DNA of 64,000 nt from [Leptolyngbya] sp. PCC 7376 (GTDB lineage: Bacteria; Cyanobacteriota; Cyanobacteriia; Cyanobacteriales; MRBY01). Shown here piece by piece: positions 55,375 to 62,777 of the stretch. The DNA is taken from contig NC_019683.1 in assembly GCF_000316605.1 (NCBI RefSeq), positions 4,758,036 to 4,822,035 of the forward strand, in the 5' to 3' direction. Position 1 is the stretch's first letter. Each line of letters begins with the position of its first letter. Under the pieces are notes generated by a model. That model saw only the letters and a list, made by a program, of their open reading frames with translations. It was not told where the DNA came from and did not search any database. The position numbers were made by a program, and so were the translations under genes.

Positions 55375-58300
55375 ATGTCCAACACAGTCTCTCCTTCGGC
55401 TAGTAAATCTTTCAAAAATGCTTTTATATCCTATGGACGAGCGGACAGCCTAGACTTTGCAAAATGGCTCAACGACAAACTTGTCGACCAAGGCTATGAC
55501 ATTTGGTTTGATTTTGAAAATATTCCTCAGGGTGTCGATTACCAGAAGCAAATTGATGCGGGCATCGAAAATGCTGACAATTTCATTTTTGTAATCGCGC
55601 CCCACGCCACAAATTCTCCCTACTGTCGCAAAGAAGTTGAGTTGGCGATCGCCCTGAATAAACGCCTTGTGCCGATCATGCATGTGGAAGAAATTTCGCG
55701 AGAAACTTGGCAGGGACGAAATCCTAATGGCACCGACGAACAGTGGGAAGCTTACAAAACAGAGGGACTCCATTCTTGTTTTACGAATCTACATCCTGAG
55801 CTGGGCAAGATTAATTGGAACCAAGTCAGTTTTAAAGAAGGCGTTAACGACTACGAGCAGTCTTTTCAGGCACTCGTCGATATCTTCGAACGACAGAGTA
55901 ACTATGTCCGCCAGCACACCGAATTTCTTGATGGTGCCCTGAAATGGGAGCGGGGGCAAAAACAATCGCAACTATTGCTGGATGAGGAACAAACTCTCCG
56001 GGCACAACATTGGCTCCAAACTAAATTTCACGGAGAACAGCCCCCTTGTGTGCCAACGGATCTCCACTGCGAATTCATTACGGAGAGCTTGAAACGATTA
56101 CCGAATGGCATGTCGCAGCTCTTTTTTGCCCATGCGAATTCGGATACTGAAACGATGCAATCTCTGCGGCAGCAAATGCGGCGGGCAGGTTATAGCGTTT
56201 GGACTCCGGAAGCGGATATTCAGTCAGGGCAAGATGTGCAAGCAGAAATATTGCGAGGCATCGAAGGGGCAGATAGTTTTATTTATTTGATGTCATCCCA
56301 ATCTCTTGAATCATCGGACTGTCAGTCACAGCTACAGTATGCCCAAACCCTCAAAAAACGGATTATTCCCATCAGGCTAGAGTCCATAGGGTCTGATACA
56401 CTCCCAGCTAATCAACAAAAATTTTCGTGGATTGATTGCACTAGTGATGAGGCTGCCAGCAAACAGTTGGCGATTGCCCAAGTCTTAAAAGCAATTAAAG
56501 AAGAATCCAGCTTTTACGAACAACACCGCCAAATTTTAGTAAAAGCTCTAAGCTGGGATCGCCAAAAACGACCCAAATCATTGCTCCTACAGGGGCAGGA
56601 CTTTACCCTCGCGGAACAATGGCTTGCCCTCAGTAAGACAGAGCAGAGTTCCCGCGCCACGGATCTCCAGCAAATCTACATCAAAGCTAGCCAGGAGATG
56701 AACCAATTTTTTGATGTCTTCATTTCCTACGGACGCGCTGACAGTAAAGACTTTGCGACCATTCTCCATGATCGGCTAGTAGAACAGGGCTTTAATGTTT
56801 GGTTCGATCAAAACGATATTCCTCTAGGCGTTGACTTTCAGGAGCAGATTAATGCCGGTATCGAAAAAGCCCACAACTTCCTTTTCATCATTGCGCCCCA
56901 CTCTGTCAATTCTCCCTACTGTGGCAAAGAAGTCGATCTCGCACTTGACCTCAACAAACGCATTATCCCCATCTTGCATGTCGAGGAAATTAGCAAAGAA
57001 ACATGGCAACAGCGCAACCCTTACAAAACTGAAGAATCAGATTGGGAAGAAGCACAGAAACAAGGCGCACATTCCAGCTTCAACAACATGAACCCAGAGA
57101 TCGGCAAGATTAATTGGGTTTATTGCCGCGAACAGGACGATTTTGAGGCTTCCTTTGAAGGGTTGATGACCCTATGTCGTCAGCATGAAGACTACGTCAA
57201 ACAGCACACCGAAATCTTGGCGAAGGCTCTGTCTTGGGAGAGCCATCAAAAACAATCTCAATATTTATTAGTTGGTGAGAATCGGATCGAAGCTGAAAAA
57301 TGGCTCCTCACTCGCTTCACGGAAACCCAAGCACCTTGCTTTCCGACCGATCTTCACTGCGAATACATCACCGAAAGCATCAAAAATGCGAATAATTTGA
57401 TGACTCAAGTGTTCCTCTCCCATTCGGATGAGGATCAAGAAATTGAAGACAAAGTGCGCCGCAGTTTAATGCGGGAAGGTTACACAGTCTGGAGCAGTCA
57501 AAGAGATATTGAGGCTGGAGTCGATTTTAACGCCGCGATTAACCGAGGCATTGAAACGACTGATAATATCGTCTATTTGCTCTCTCCAAATTCTCTTGCT
57601 TCGGAATATTGTCAAAAAGAAATTGACTACGCTCTATCGCTAAATAAACGAATTATCCCGTTAAATATTGCGGCCGTCGATGAAACTAATCTTCCAGCAG
57701 CCATTCAATCATTGCAATACATTGATTTAACCAATGGCATTGAAGACGAAACTTATCAAGCTCGTCTTAATGAGTTGCTGAAAATCCTCAACCAAGACAA
57801 AGCGTACTTTGAAGAACACAAAGCGATTTTGGTACGAGGTCTCAAATGGCAAGCCCAACAAAAAAACAACAGTATTTTATTACGTGGGCACAATCTCCGG
57901 GAAGCAGAAGCATGGCTCAAGCTTGCAGCCAAACGATCAGAATATGCTGCAACTCCCCTCCACCAAGAATTTATTCAGGCGAGTCTAGACCAACTAGAAG
58001 ATGTTGCTCTTGATGTATTTGTATCCTATTCCCGCTCAGACTCAGACTTTGTGCGCCAACTCAATGATGCGCTACAAGTTCAAGGGAAAACGACTTGGTT
58101 TGATCAAGAAAATATTGCGTCAGGGACTGATTTTCAGGCAGAAATTTTCCAAGGAATTGAAACCTGCGATAACTTTCTGTTTGTGATTTCTCCAAATTCT
58201 GTTAATTCGCCTTACTGCGCTGGGGAAGTAGAGCACGCAGCGAAACTCGGTAAGCGTTTTGTGACAGTGCTTCACCAGTCAGTCAGTTCAGCATCGCTCC

Positions 58301-60801
58301 ATCCAGAACTTGAGAAAGTGCAGTGGATTGATTTCAACAAAAATGATGGTGATTTCTACGCAAACTTTAGTGAATTAATTCGTACTCTCGACACAGATCG
58401 TGAACATGTCCGCAGCCACACAAAATGGTCGCAGCGTGCTCTAGATTGGGTCAATAAAAAACGTGGTAAAGATCTATTGCTGAGAGGTAATGAGTTTGCG
58501 ATCGCCGAAAACTGGCTAAAAGAAGCAGATGACGGCAAGAAAACACCAAAGCCGACAACTCTACAGCGGGACTTTTTAATCGCGAGTAAAGAAGCCATAG
58601 AAGCTGCAATCCGCCGAGAAAAACGCATTTCGATGATTATTCGAACATTACTCGGAGTCGTAAGTGTGGCTTGCGTGATTGCATTTATCCAATACCGCCA
58701 AGCGAATTTTCAACGTAAACGGGCAGAAAGAGTTCAGGAAGGACAGATCAACGCCTTGAGCGATTATTCGGTTTCTCTCCTCGAAAACCATCAAGATCTA
58801 CAGAGTTTGATTGAGGCGATTCGTGCTGGCCGACAACTACAACTCCAGCTTAAAACGGTAGACCAATCGACCGTTGATGCCGTCACGACGACTTTGCGCG
58901 ATGCCTTACTCAATATTGAAGAAGTAAATCGGATTACAGGACACCCTTCAGCTCAAGGGATTAACGCAGTGGCCTATAGTCCTGACGAATCCATGGTTGC
59001 AACAGGTGGTGCCGATGGAAATATTCGTCTCTGGTCTGCTGAAGGTGAGTCTATACGCACCCTGGAAGACCATGAGGCTCCAATTTACGAAATGGAGTTT
59101 AGTCCTAATGGCAAGTTTTTACTCTCTGGTAGTGAAGATTTTACGGCAAGGCTTTGGGATCCTGAGACAGGAGAACTGTTGCGGACTTTTGAAGATCATG
59201 ACAATTCGATTTATGGTGTCAGTTTCAGTCCAGACAGTCAGATAATTGCTACTGCCAGCGTTGATGGAACCGTCAACATATATTCAGTCGAAGGTCAGCT
59301 CTTACAAACTTTAGAGATAGATCTTGAAAATTATGATGTCAGTTTTAATGCTGATGGATCGGCGATCGCCACAGCTAGCGAAGATGGTATTTTACGGTTT
59401 TGGGATTTAGAAGGAGAATTGCGAAATGAAGTCGAAGCCCATGAAAATGGCATTAGCACCGTTGCTTTTAGTCCCAAGGGAGATTTAGTCGCAACGGGTA
59501 GCTGGGATCAGACCGCAAAACTCTGGACAATTGATGGTGAATCAGTTGTTACACTCCAAGGCCATACTGACGAGGTTAATCATCTTTTCTTTAGTGACGA
59601 CGGTGAATTTTTAGTCACGACAAGCTACGATAATCTCGCCAAAGTTTGGTCACGTGAAGGTGAGTTACTTCATACAATTCGTGGCCATGAAGATGGCGTT
59701 TTAGGTGTCGCAATTAGTAAGGATTCTTCCACAGTTAAAACAACAAGCTTAGACGGAACAGCAAGGGTTTGGGACATTTCATCTTTACCCAATGTCAAAA
59801 CTTTTGAAGATCAAACAGCCGATATTTTCGAAGTAGAATTTTCCCCTGATGAAAAGTGGATTGGTAGCGCAGGAGATAGTGGCGCGCGAATTTGGGATCT
59901 AGAAGGGAATTTAATTTCGGATCTCGACGGGGAAAATAATGCAATGCGTGATCTCGCCTTTAGTCAGGATGGTAGGTATCTTGCGACAGGCGAAGAAAAT
60001 GGTGTCGTGAAGATCTGGGAATGGACTGGCGATAATTTTAAGCTTGTACAGACCGTCCAAAATGAGGATGCAGGGAAAATGCGGGCGATCGCCTTCCACC
60101 CTGAAGGGAAATATCTAGCAACGGCAGGAGATGGTGTCACAGTTCAATTGTGGACACTTGATGGGGAATCCGTATTCGTCTCAGAGGTGGCAGATTGGAC
60201 CAACTCGATTGCCTTTAGTCCAGATGGAGAATTTTTAATTTCTGGTGGCTGGGATCAGATGATTAGCCTTTGGGATTTAGAGGGTAACCTCCTAAATAGT
60301 TGGGAAGCACACCCTGATTCCATTAATGGTTTGGCCTTTGGGAATGATGCTCAAACAATCATTTCTGCCAGCAACGATCAGACTGCCCAAATTTGGCAAT
60401 TAGATGGCGCTTCAGGCTCGCCGACTTTAACGGTTAATCATGGAGCCGAAGTCAATAAAGCAACTCTCAGTCCTGATGGCAAAAATCTGATTACAGTCGG
60501 GGGACAAACCGTGAAGTTTTGGGATCTAGAAGGACGTTTACTCCAAACAATCGCCGCCCATAACGATATCATTTACGGTTTTGCCCTCAGTTCTGATGGC
60601 AAACAATTTGTGACTGGCAGTTATGACTCGACAGCCCGACTATGGTCATACCAACCCAAAGTGTCGGAAAAAGCCACGGAAATTTGGCAATTAGATCTGA
60701 ATGCTTTAGTAGACCATGCATGCGGTGTTGCCCGAAATTATCTGACCTTTAACCCAGATGTCTCCGATAGTGATCGCCTTCTATGCGAGCCAGACCTTTA
60801 A
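55375..60801 (+). CDS. Five-TIR, transmembrane, fourteen-WD40 protein (1808 aa)
   Basis: Five TIR domains lie in tandem, starting near residues 14, 246, 445, 676 and 878. The expected NADase glutamate after the (S/P)-x-x-C motif is Glu87, Glu519, Glu749 and Glu951 in TIR1, 3, 4 and 5. In TIR2 it is Gln319. Every TIR is followed by a helical linker with pattern L-x-W...LL...A-x-x-W-L. A transmembrane helix (about 1085-1104) leads to a short helical region and fourteen WD40 repeats (about 1195-1760), enough for two seven-bladed propellers. There is no nucleotide-binding STAND/P-loop domain. The arrangement suggests a receptor scaffold on one side of the membrane and TIR signalling on the other. 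Role is unknown; immune or stress signalling is an inference. Confidence 0.93.
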   Translation: MSNTVSPSASKSFKNAFISYGRADSLDFAKWLNDKLVDQGYDIWFDFENIPQGVDYQKQIDAGIENADNFIFVIAPHATNSPYCRKEVELAIALNKRLVPIMHVEEISRETWQGRNPNGTDEQWEAYKTEGLHSCFTNLHPELGKINWNQVSFKEGVNDYEQSFQALVDIFERQSNYVRQHTEFLDGALKWERGQKQSQLLLDEEQTLRAQHWLQTKFHGEQPPCVPTDLHCEFITESLKRLPNGMSQLFFAHANSDTETMQSLRQQMRRAGYSVWTPEADIQSGQDVQAEILRGIEGADSFIYLMSSQSLESSDCQSQLQYAQTLKKRIIPIRLESIGSDTLPANQQKFSWIDCTSDEAASKQLAIAQVLKAIKEESSFYEQHRQILVKALSWDRQKRPKSLLLQGQDFTLAEQWLALSKTEQSSRATDLQQIYIKASQEMNQFFDVFISYGRADSKDFATILHDRLVEQGFNVWFDQNDIPLGVDFQEQINAGIEKAHNFLFIIAPHSVNSPYCGKEVDLALDLNKRIIPILHVEEISKETWQQRNPYKTEESDWEEAQKQGAHSSFNNMNPEIGKINWVYCREQDDFEASFEGLMTLCRQHEDYVKQHTEILAKALSWESHQKQSQYLLVGENRIEAEKWLLTRFTETQAPCFPTDLHCEYITESIKNANNLMTQVFLSHSDEDQEIEDKVRRSLMREGYTVWSSQRDIEAGVDFNAAINRGIETTDNIVYLLSPNSLASEYCQKEIDYALSLNKRIIPLNIAAVDETNLPAAIQSLQYIDLTNGIEDETYQARLNELLKILNQDKAYFEEHKAILVRGLKWQAQQKNNSILLRGHNLREAEAWLKLAAKRSEYAATPLHQEFIQASLDQLEDVALDVFVSYSRSDSDFVRQLNDALQVQGKTTWFDQENIASGTDFQAEIFQGIETCDNFLFVISPNSVNSPYCAGEVEHAAKLGKRFVTVLHQSVSSASLHPELEKVQWIDFNKNDGDFYANFSELIRTLDTDREHVRSHTKWSQRALDWVNKKRGKDLLLRGNEFAIAENWLKEADDGKKTPKPTTLQRDFLIASKEAIEAAIRREKRISMIIRTLLGVVSVACVIAFIQYRQANFQRKRAERVQEGQINALSDYSVSLLENHQDLQSLIEAIRAGRQLQLQLKTVDQSTVDAVTTTLRDALLNIEEVNRITGHPSAQGINAVAYSPDESMVATGGADGNIRLWSAEGESIRTLEDHEAPIYEMEFSPNGKFLLSGSEDFTARLWDPETGELLRTFEDHDNSIYGVSFSPDSQIIATASVDGTVNIYSVEGQLLQTLEIDLENYDVSFNADGSAIATASEDGILRFWDLEGELRNEVEAHENGISTVAFSPKGDLVATGSWDQTAKLWTIDGESVVTLQGHTDEVNHLFFSDDGEFLVTTSYDNLAKVWSREGELLHTIRGHEDGVLGVAISKDSSTVKTTSLDGTARVWDISSLPNVKTFEDQTADIFEVEFSPDEKWIGSAGDSGARIWDLEGNLISDLDGENNAMRDLAFSQDGRYLATGEENGVVKIWEWTGDNFKLVQTVQNEDAGKMRAIAFHPEGKYLATAGDGVTVQLWTLDGESVFVSEVADWTNSIAFSPDGEFLISGGWDQMISLWDLEGNLLNSWEAHPDSINGLAFGNDAQTIISASNDQTAQIWQLDGASGSPTLTVNHGAEVNKATLSPDGKNLITVGGQTVKFWDLEGRLLQTIAAHNDIIYGFALSSDGKQFVTGSYDSTARLWSYQPKVSEKATEIWQLDLNALVDHACGVARNYLTFNPDVSDSDRLLCEPDL

Positions 60802-60863: not shown

Positions 60864-62777
60864 ATGTTTTTTAATCAACGGTCTTTTTTGCAAAATACAA
60901 CAGTTCTCACGATGGCGATCGCCGCAGGTCTCAATATCTCCCAGCCAGCTTCGAGTCAAACAACAGTTAGCTTGCCGGGATTTGACCCCAGTGATGACGG
61001 CTTTCAGTTTTCTAACCAAACCATGGCAAATAGCCTAGAATCTAGTGCCGATCTAAAGTCAAGCATTATTCGCAACTATGCCACTGGCTACGCTGACACC
61101 CTCAAGTTTTTGTTTGGAGAAAAAGCCGTTTGCCAAGGGTACGACGAAAATGGCGAATGTTATACCTCGTTCCAAGCTCGCCAATGGATGTCTGACCAAG
61201 CTCTTCTAGCAGCAAACTATGGTGTTTGTGATGGTATGGCTGTCGCTAGCCAACTACTTTGGCTCATCGAGAACCAAGATGAAAACCCATTCAGCGATCG
61301 CAGTCAAAACCTGAGTAATCTCCTCGGTGGACAAACCGATATTGCAGCCAACTCTCTCTCACCGAGTAACTCCAGACTACAAGAATTAATTTTAGAAGCC
61401 TATGCTAGCCAAACAGCTGACGAAATTTACGAAAGTATTACTGCTAGTCGCCAAAAACTTCCGAGTGAACTCCTTGAAAATATTGCAGATAGCATCGGGG
61501 ACTACGCAGAAGATCCTTCCAAATGGCAAGGATTATTAACAATTGGAATTAATCGTATCGCCCCCGACGGACGCCTCATCGATGGCCATACCCTTGTTCC
61601 CTTTGCCGCAGAAATAATCGACGCAGAAAAACTCCTAGCCCGAGTCCACGTTTACGATGTTAACCATCCCAATACAACTCAATATCTCGAAATTGATGCT
61701 GCTGCAGAAACATGGCGATATCAGCCAGAGGGAGATACTGCGTATGAAGGAAATGCAGAGACCAAAAGCTTAGGAGTTGTCAGCCTTGCTGAACGTGCAA
61801 TACCCTACATTGATGAACCTTTCGCTTCCTGTCCATTCTGTGCAACTGGAAACAGCGAACTCGAAGTTTCTTTCGTTGGTGTAGGTGAATTATTTATCGT
61901 TCCATTTGGATTTGATGGGGAGTCAGAAACTGAAGGAATTGGCTTTGATCCAGACAAGAAGGAATATGTTGACACTTTACCTGGTGCATCCATGATTGCA
62001 ACCCAAGGAGGACTTGGGCAAAGTGTTGCCCGTAACTATACTGTCCCGGGAGATCTCGAAGGCTATTCAGTTTCTTACATTGGCCTGCCAGAAAGTGGTT
62101 TAGATGGCTATATCTCATTAACTAAGCCCGGCATCACAGCACAGCTTAATAAATCAAAAGTAGTCCCTTTCTTGGCGAGCTTAGACTATGCCCACCGACG
62201 GCAGCTCATTTATAATCCAAACCCTAAAGTTCTCAAATTTAAGAATTTAAATTATGAAGATGTTTCATTCACAGTTGATGACGAGACTAATCAAGTAAGC
62301 TACCAAGTCACTTTTGTCGGCGAAAATATCGACTGGAGTAACGAGGAAAGTAAGAAAAAATCGAGTAATCAATATTTTAGAGTTGACAAAGGTACTATGC
62401 GAGTAGATTTTGGGGGTCAAAATGAGTATGAGGATGAGGCTGATGTTTTCTTCAACATTGAAATTACACGTATCAACTCTGATGGCACAAAAACACAACT
62501 AGCCGTCGAAAATTTACAACGCAAGGTAACAGAATTCAGTTCATTTAGTTTAGTTAATCAGCCTTGGGACAAACTCGCTCAAGATGTAACAGCTCACGAC
62601 ATCAATATCGACGTCGTTGACTTACTAAAGTATTTTCCTGAGAATAAATACGATCCTAATATGAATGCATTGAACTACGTTCGTTTAAGTGATTATTGGA
62701 GAACAGAACTTGAAAAAGACATTGAGCCTAATTATGAACAGCGTCCCCATAGAGGGACAAGAAAGAAAGGGAGATAA
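60864..62777 (+). CDS. Exported protein with papain-like Cys-His-Asp motifs, first paralogue
   Basis: I place the start at the ATG at 60864. The open frame extends 27 codons upstream into the end of the TIR-WD40 gene, but the signal peptide (MFFNQRSFLQNTTVLTMAIA) begins here. The mature part carries NYGVCDGMAVASQLLW with Cys122, DGHTLVPF with His242 and VYDVNHPN with Asp265/Asn267, the order seen in papain-like cysteine peptidases. A CxxC pair follows (SCPFCATG, Cys323/326), then a predicted beta-rich C-terminal domain and a basic end (RPHRGTRKKGR). Catalysis is not proven. The gene follows the five-TIR gene by 62 bp on the same strand. Confidence 0.75.
   Translation: MFFNQRSFLQNTTVLTMAIAAGLNISQPASSQTTVSLPGFDPSDDGFQFSNQTMANSLESSADLKSSIIRNYATGYADTLKFLFGEKAVCQGYDENGECYTSFQARQWMSDQALLAANYGVCDGMAVASQLLWLIENQDENPFSDRSQNLSNLLGGQTDIAANSLSPSNSRLQELILEAYASQTADEIYESITASRQKLPSELLENIADSIGDYAEDPSKWQGLLTIGINRIAPDGRLIDGHTLVPFAAEIIDAEKLLARVHVYDVNHPNTTQYLEIDAAAETWRYQPEGDTAYEGNAETKSLGVVSLAERAIPYIDEPFASCPFCATGNSELEVSFVGVGELFIVPFGFDGESETEGIGFDPDKKEYVDTLPGASMIATQGGLGQSVARNYTVPGDLEGYSVSYIGLPESGLDGYISLTKPGITAQLNKSKVVPFLASLDYAHRRQLIYNPNPKVLKFKNLNYEDVSFTVDDETNQVSYQVTFVGENIDWSNEESKKKSSNQYFRVDKGTMRVDFGGQNEYEDEADVFFNIEITRINSDGTKTQLAVENLQRKVTEFSSFSLVNQPWDKLAQDVTAHDINIDVVDLLKYFPENKYDPNMNALNYVRLSDYWRTELEKDIEPNYEQRPHRGTRKKGR

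Follow-up and report, generated by a model that had tools for sequence, protein, structure and literature searches.

A Cyanobacterial Five-TIR Protein with a Predicted Membrane Helix and a Predicted Pair of WD40 Propellers, and the Genomic Link of Its Family to LSDAT and SLATT Proteins

Introduction

What might a cyanobacterium do with five TIR domains in a single chain, and to what could such a chain signal? The question is raised by an open reading frame at positions 55375-60801 of a 64,000-nucleotide stretch of the genome of [Leptolyngbya] sp. PCC 7376 (NC_019683.1, 4,758,036 to 4,822,035; hereafter the window), which lies on the + strand, as do all the features of the gene given below, starts with ATG, and encodes a product of 1808 aa. 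Here, we examine the domains of this protein, its relatives, and the genes that accompany them.

Architecture and Family

Pfam assigns PF13676 (TIR_2) to five stretches of the product (whole-protein E 4.9e-130) and WD40 to ten. Residues ~12-1076 consist of five TIR-plus-linker units, with pairwise identities of 28-58%, followed by a single hydrophobic segment (residues 1087-1105, positions 58633-58689; mean Kyte-Doolittle hydropathy 2.46), a predicted transmembrane helix lying inside a longer predicted helix (1081-1138). The protein was modelled with AlphaFold2 as two halves. The first (residues 1-1110; pLDDT 87.6, pTM 0.73, 53 sequences) shows five alpha/beta units of TIR-like form with helical linkers between them; against the PDB, this array model matches SARM1, SPARTA, AbTir, and TLRs over one TIR domain each, matches that speak to the TIR fold and not to an assembly. 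In the second (residues 1080-1808; pLDDT 88.7, from 12 sequences only), a long helix precedes 56 strands in order; counted as 14 blades of four, these predict two seven-bladed WD40 propellers, at residues ~1183-1467 (58921-59775) and ~1474-1758 (59794-60648). A helical tail (60721-60786) closes the chain and carries the sole two cysteines that follow the membrane helix, Cys1783 and Cys1804, a possible disulfide. This five-TIR, one-helix, two-propeller pattern is far beyond chance, and the initial annotation, which had read from the frame five TIR domains, one membrane helix, and two propellers with fourteen WD40 repeats, is borne out. It had also held that a STAND ATPase is missing, and indeed none occurs among the matches listed (25 of 53 from Pfam and 4 from NCBIfam); residues 12-1076, between effector and repeats, are filled by TIR units, an arrangement other than that of STAND/NLR proteins.

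The same annotation had called this architecture unusual, a description to be corrected in that the family searches show it not to be isolated. The window protein retrieved 1486 relatives (best 120 listed), and its last three units retrieved 745 among the 7997 best candidates (best 120 again listed); the family is large, mostly cyanobacterial where a source is given, with further members in Candidatus Parabeggiatoa and in one record titled Gemmatimonadetes (L030), and its chains mostly bear 3, 5, 7, or 9 TIRs. Since both queries were arrays and the best scores are listed, the rarity of shorter forms cannot be concluded from these lists. A contig scan with the single protein sequence gave no matches, and a scan with an alignment of relatives (A1) was used instead; when 40 relatives were searched with the whole protein, WD40 matches dominated, and that search enters no counts. 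Among 239 loci encoding a relative, 79 were analysed. The genome of the window itself has 19 TIR_2 matches, all 19 inside five open frames. Two of these encode five-TIR arrays, namely the window gene and its paralogue near 5.00 Mb, and the other three encode three TIRs each; the tail is WD40 in four and CHASE2 in one. The five-TIR WD40 paralogue (P0004; L005:4680-9947, on G000:C1) is 78% identical to the window protein over the array and has no predicted membrane helix; thus, an array can do without the membrane. After the three-TIR CHASE2 paralogue (L002:5345-12310) come a DUF928-cluster gene and then, by eye, a CHAT-like TPR gene; arrays of the CHASE2 type in other cyanobacteria have these neighbours too. 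Among the relatives listed, the C-terminal Pfam sets comprise WD40, CHASE2, Cache, FGE-sulfatase, TPR, and FHA/pentapeptide, indicating a constant array with an exchangeable sensor.

TIR Classes and Catalytic Residues

Are the five TIRs equivalent? Alignment A1 (53 rows) supplied the training sets of the class HMMs, with units 1 and 3 as class A, units 2 and 4 as class B, and unit 5 as class C. The HMMs were applied to 238 listed proteins, 53 of which, the window protein included, were also training rows. A protein was counted as complete-looking if it began with Met, had its first TIR inside the opening 60 aa, and ran on for 60 aa beyond the last TIR; 223 qualified, the other 15 being dropped, and in all 223 the first TIR is A and the last two are B-C. 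The number of TIRs is odd in 219 of them (three, n=153; five, n=56; seven, n=8; nine, n=2); the four even-numbered exceptions comprise one AABC and three ABCABC, and one nine-TIR protein breaks the alternation (AABAABABC). The 78 complete frames in the 79 loci repeat the pattern, 69 being ABC and nine ABABC. A tree was built from 152 TIRs, 30 proteins contributing 150 and single-TIR proteins two. In it, all 59 B rows fall on one side of a branch with support 98/99, and the four groups taken together need 4 changes (minimum 3, shuffled mean 71); the inner forks are weak, given the few columns and an unsettled bootstrap, one TIR (P0119 T3) is A by HMM and placed in C on the tree, and another (P0030 T3) stands apart on a long branch. 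The five TIRs belong to three ancient classes arranged in a set order and are not repeats of a single domain. The window gene reads A-B-A-B-C and then continues into helix and sensor, the array-receptor pattern. Single-TIR WD40 proteins, which the initial annotation rightly said exist in cyanobacteria, are seen in L095 and L096: they resemble the window protein in their TIR-linker-helix-WD40 layout, a Cys-free propeller with a C-terminal Cys pair, and an LSDAT gene in the same genomes, but they have one TIR only and no class B.

The classes also differ in the residues expected of a TIR hydrolase. Among 852 TIRs assigned to a class, drawn with partly redundant rows from the loci and from the first 120 proteins listed, 288/300 A, 298/317 B, and 195/235 C retain the Glu of helix alpha-C. 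The Arg of GRAD persists in 289/300, 18/317, and 182/235, and the Asp of WFD in 293/300, 33/317, and 199/235, respectively; classes A and C keep the NADase set better than B. In the window protein, the TIR fold occurs together with this Glu in four of five domains. TIR1 (class A, residues 12-103, 55408-55683) keeps WFD and Glu87 at the NADase position, and TIR3 (class A, residues 443-535, 56701-56979) has Glu519 and Asp478, both identical in 53/53 aligned rows, with Glu519 aligned to the E in SARM1 "KEIVTAL" and in AbTIR "YELD". TIR5 (class C, residues 877-967, 58003-58275), next to the membrane, keeps WFD and Glu951. As for class B, TIR4 (residues 674-764, 57394-57666) keeps Glu749 and lacks the F-D of WFD, while TIR2 (residues 244-334, 56104-56376), with Gln319 in place of Glu and no WFD, is predicted inactive.

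The array could instead be a non-enzymatic scaffold, in the manner of animal TLR and adaptor TIRs, recruiting TIR proteins head-to-tail and making no product. Class B, mostly devoid of the Arg and the WFD Asp, and the Gln of TIR2 agree with such a role, as do some matches to solved structures: TIR4 alone ranks the TIRs of TLR15 and TLR1 just behind Cat1, TLRs are well represented among the 12 solved matches of class B (Cat1 on top at 5.7e-13), and several appear among the 38 of class A at 1e-5, one of them third-best (7ylf). Against it, class A retains the residue set, with Glu519 invariant among the aligned rows, and even class B mostly keeps its Glu. The class A profile matches the solved TIRs 7uxr, Cat1, SARM1, and AbTIR at 7.8e-11 to 3.8e-8, the first two of which we take to be TIR enzymes, and over half of the class A matches are SARM1 (with many entries), tir-1, AbTIR, Cat1, or TIR-APAZ; class C has 27 solved matches. 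Together with the co-occurrence of a TRPM-type nucleotide-sensor domain, described below, this makes a pure scaffold rather unlikely. Returning to an enzymatic array, TIR enzymes are described as requiring assembly to configure the NAD+ site (PMC8635717, in the part of this review at hand). On that ground, the covalent A-B-C chain may be a pre-wired TIR assembly, where A and C would be catalytic and B mainly a partner; the suggestion that concentrated TIRs could act as a built-in oligomer fits the fixed A-B-C order, although dispensing with ligand-driven assembly would be a further supposition.

LSDAT and SLATT Companions

Which genes accompany the arrays? LSDAT and SLATT were reportedly named in a founding study of 2015, which may already note LSDAT-SLATT pairs. 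Genes up to three frames away from the arrays, 395 neighbours at 83 loci, were clustered. Recurrent neighbours were CHAT/TPR-like genes (by eye), DUF928 genes (mainly with the CHASE2 type), and, unexpectedly, LSDAT_prok and DUF4231/SLATT. The LSDAT_prok neighbour corresponds to "SLOG in TRPM" in Pfam (E 1.5e-68), and all three SLATT proteins tested score above the NCBIfam cut-off of SLATT_1. In the 79 loci, LSDAT occurs in 19, SLATT in 18, both in 12, either in 25, and neither in 54, counts to be read with several close kin among the positive loci (L018, L019, L022, L074) and with 36 loci shorter than 15 kb; of the 43 that span at least 15 kb, 20 carry LSDAT or SLATT. The genes are linked to arrays in the relatives L109, L111, and L114; in G009 and G116 (L109 and L111), an LSDAT gene, a SLATT gene, a larger SLATT gene, and an A-B-C array receptor follow one another in this order on one strand. 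The larger SLATT of G009 carries C39 and GH19 domains (L109:6632-8827), and similar fusions join SLATT to a phage lysozyme (L084:15865-17319) or to GH19 (L022:6741-8270); these SLATT-hydrolase fusions are possibly single-chain, holin-endolysin-like lysis proteins.

A further neighbour cluster recurs in seven loci (L039:6229-6885, L044:14187-14843, L052:5740-7914, L062:7155-9365, L069:4720-6942, L060, and L067); its member in L062 is a TPR-S protein, the one in L039 has no Pfam match, and in five of the seven loci the gene sits between the TIR array gene and the SLATT gene. LSDAT was not found in the loci of this cluster. Downstream of the window gene lie two tandem genes for secreted-looking proteins, at 60864-62774 and from ~62857 to past the end of the window (whole in L004:8893-10833), which are 29% identical over part of their length. 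Both have the motif G-V-C-(D/E)-G and, further on, G-H-T-L, which on visual inspection suggest an enzyme of the Cys-His kind. Pfam gives no match for the product of 60864-62774, and NCBIfam none for either protein. As a partner of the receptor the 60864-62774 gene was discarded: in 40 genomes, the present one included, only itself and its neighbour match.

At genome level, the association is tight. The same 195 Cyanobacteriia genomes, the present one included, were searched for LSDAT, DUF4231, and class B TIRs (alignment A4), a best E of <=1e-27 denoting a class B array and <=1e-19 the TIR group including single-TIR kin, both cut-offs set post hoc. LSDAT is present in 52 genomes and DUF4231 in 67, some of the latter weak; class B arrays occur in 29, so arrays are not universal. 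All 29 array genomes carry LSDAT, and 28 carry DUF4231/SLATT (G100 does not). LSDAT is found in 49 of the 50 genomes with the TIR group, single-TIR kin counted (G229 being the exception), versus 3 of the 145 others (G146, G166, and G219), counts on which the Fisher tests ignore relatedness. When only TIR-bearing genomes are considered as a control, the proportions are 49/50 with the group and 3/32 without, and both states are met within one genus (the present genome vs. G003) and within families f50, f53, f34, and f59. Single-TIR relatives also accompany LSDAT (G014, G047); the link is therefore to the TIR group, not to five TIRs. The genome of the window has exactly one LSDAT gene (251 aa; Pfam 230 bits, cut-off 25.4) and one DUF4231/SLATT gene (261 aa; DUF4231 in Pfam 95.5, cut-off 24.7; SLATT_1 in NCBIfam 101.8, cut-off 41), which share a strand at ~3.561-3.563 Mb with ~0.3 kb between them; one genome thus encodes a SLOG sensor, a SLATT protein, and the candidate maker of the messenger. 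The pair, outside the window, is not beside the receptors and lies far from all five arrays. Compared with solved structures, this LSDAT matches TRPM8 (3.7e-7) and TRPM2 (~1e-5, 7aov, to 2e-4), the SLATT protein matching none; the related domain of TRPM2 binds ADP-ribose.

Do these companions take part in signalling? The array might drain NAD+ directly, in a SARM1-like suicide, LSDAT and SLATT being mere companions in defence islands. TIR proteins can act through NAD+ depletion (PMC10474274, available text), defence genes cluster, and the 54 of 79 loci with neither gene, together with the distance between pair and receptors in the present genome, count against a messenger route. Conversely, 49/50 against 3/145 is tighter than we would expect from island sharing, LSDAT is scarce in TIR-bearing genomes outside the group, and a pair that lies in no island with the receptors is hard to call an island companion, so that direct drainage seems to us decidedly unlikely. 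The messenger route, in which LSDAT and SLATT would act after the array, is the reading pursued below.

Side of the Membrane

Membrane placement had been expected to separate the propellers from the TIRs. For 118 distinct WD40-tailed proteins, we counted cysteines in the propeller core, which was taken to begin ~40 aa past the start of the helix and to stop 75 aa short of the end. The 113 helix-bearing cores hold 66 Cys in 72,514 aa (none in 80 cores, at least one in 33), versus 31 in 2,844 aa in the five helix-less cores (9, 3, 0, 12, and 7), ~12 times more per residue; in the array part, the two groups have 1.11 and 1.25 Cys/100 aa. In 93 of 114 relatives the helix has more positive charge on its N side, and the reverse holds in 8. 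Cys depletion and this family-wide charge bias favour propellers outside the cytoplasm, a placement predicted from composition. The separation thus finds support in the Cys counts, yet it meets exceptions: the flanks of the window helix (N side +2, C side +4) are opposite to the charge rule, and the paralogue L003 of the same genome has a helix plus 8 Cys after it. The C-terminal Cys pair was set aside as a sign of outside location, given that the helix-less P0004 has it too; only overall Cys depletion is used here as topology evidence. P0004, with 9 Cys in its propeller core, and the window protein, with none, form a natural pair for topology comparison. A helix-bearing WD40 frame (L099:1654-6501), open at one end and with no TIR in the available part, has only the C-terminal pair of Cys after its helix, a hint that cyanobacteria may have a broader set of WD40 proteins placed outside the cytoplasm.

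As for the sensors, Cache is an extracellular receptor domain. CHASE2 has been described likewise (PMC8195603, in the portion available), and the same array is fused to both. That the propellers are cytoplasmic, with the helix as an anchor only and the low Cys content as a quirk of homogenised WD40 repeats, would agree with the reversed flanks of the window helix, with L003, and with the Cys pair of P0004, but it is improbable in view of the Cys-rich helix-less cores (one of the five has none), the charge bias across the family, the fusions to CHASE2 and Cache, and the contrast, within one genome, between the Cys-free propeller of L099 and L100, a WD40 frame with 27 Cys and no helix in its available part.

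Relation to Known Systems

Propellers placed outside and TIRs inside would recall animal Toll-like receptors, membrane receptors with the TIR in the cytoplasm and the sensor outside, an arrangement here predicted for the window protein. The window family differs in its N-terminal TIRs, mostly three to nine per chain and probably catalytic, and in its WD40, CHASE2, or Cache sensors. SARM1 shares the TIR fold and the NADase residue set; yet it has one TIR per chain and forms an octamer, whereas the window protein holds several TIRs in one chain. That a TIR protein makes a nucleotide and an effector reads it is already known from Thoeris, in which a TIR enzyme yields an NAD-derived messenger for a separate effector and ThsA can be SIR2-SLOG (PMC11204291, as far as the accessible text goes). 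By contrast, the window family combines a fused TIR array on a predicted membrane receptor with an LSDAT_prok sensor and a SLATT effector. The NCBIfam model of type III ThcB4 scores 153.5 bits against the window protein, below its cut-off of 220, PADLOC ThsB models, which carry no cut-off, match it, and Pfam finds no ThsA-type effector domain in four genes near the window gene. Closest to the downstream part are the nucleotide-driven SLOG/SLATT conflict systems of Burroughs, Aravind et al., where SLATT, found beside phage TIR genes, is a predicted membrane effector regulated by ADPr derivatives; the accessible sections of these papers describe no multi-TIR receptor upstream (PMC9503650, PMC7159879). 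This published prediction supports SLATT as the last step (PMC9503650, same sections).

Chains with more than one TIR have precedents: mollusc Tolls with one extra TIR (PMC4929906, available part) and a Dictyostelium protein with two tandem TIRs (PMC13142454, in excerpt). DGR-diversified proteins were considered and set aside, TIR domains but no TIR array being mentioned in the available sections (PMC10907252, PMC7517822). In the open-licence literature searched we recognised no multi-TIR bacterial receptor, nor did we find there a tight link of such receptors to LSDAT.

Proposed Pathway and Significance

Overall, we propose that the receptor makes an NAD-derived messenger that acts through LSDAT on SLATT, with the propellers outside the cytoplasm, a model to which we give an even chance. 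Binding or clustering at the propellers would switch on the cytoplasmic array, where A and C would be the catalytic TIRs and B, mainly a structural partner, would complete or hold the active assembly. The array would convert NAD+ to an ADP-ribose-type alarm molecule (ADPR or a cyclic form); the single LSDAT of the genome would bind this messenger, much as the related TRPM2 domain does with ADPR, and SLATT, joined in some relatives by wall hydrolases, would open or break the membrane. Growth arrest or lysis would be the end result, and the sensed event, at a guess, phage attack or envelope damage. A broader reading, which we put forward tentatively and hold somewhat doubtful, is that in cyanobacteria many swappable-sensor membrane receptors, each with a covalent and strictly ordered A-B-C signalosome, feed one NAD-derived messenger to one LSDAT sensor and SLATT pore, as a bacterial counterpart of Toll receptors joined to a TRPM2-like branch; in some lineages cell-wall hydrolases would arm this pore as a suicide device of the holin-endolysin kind; the window protein would then be one of five receptors sharing a single effector pair.

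If the proposed pathway is true, bacteria would possess Toll-like membrane receptors whose TIR assembly is pre-wired in one chain and in fixed order, holding in a single molecule what SARM1, plant, and animal TIRs build from many; the role of each TIR in assembly would then be testable by single-domain changes. TIR signalling would also be tied, in bacteria, to a TRPM-type sensor, with a likely effector named, and the near one-to-one link between the TIR group and LSDAT across genomes makes this a concrete, testable pathway.
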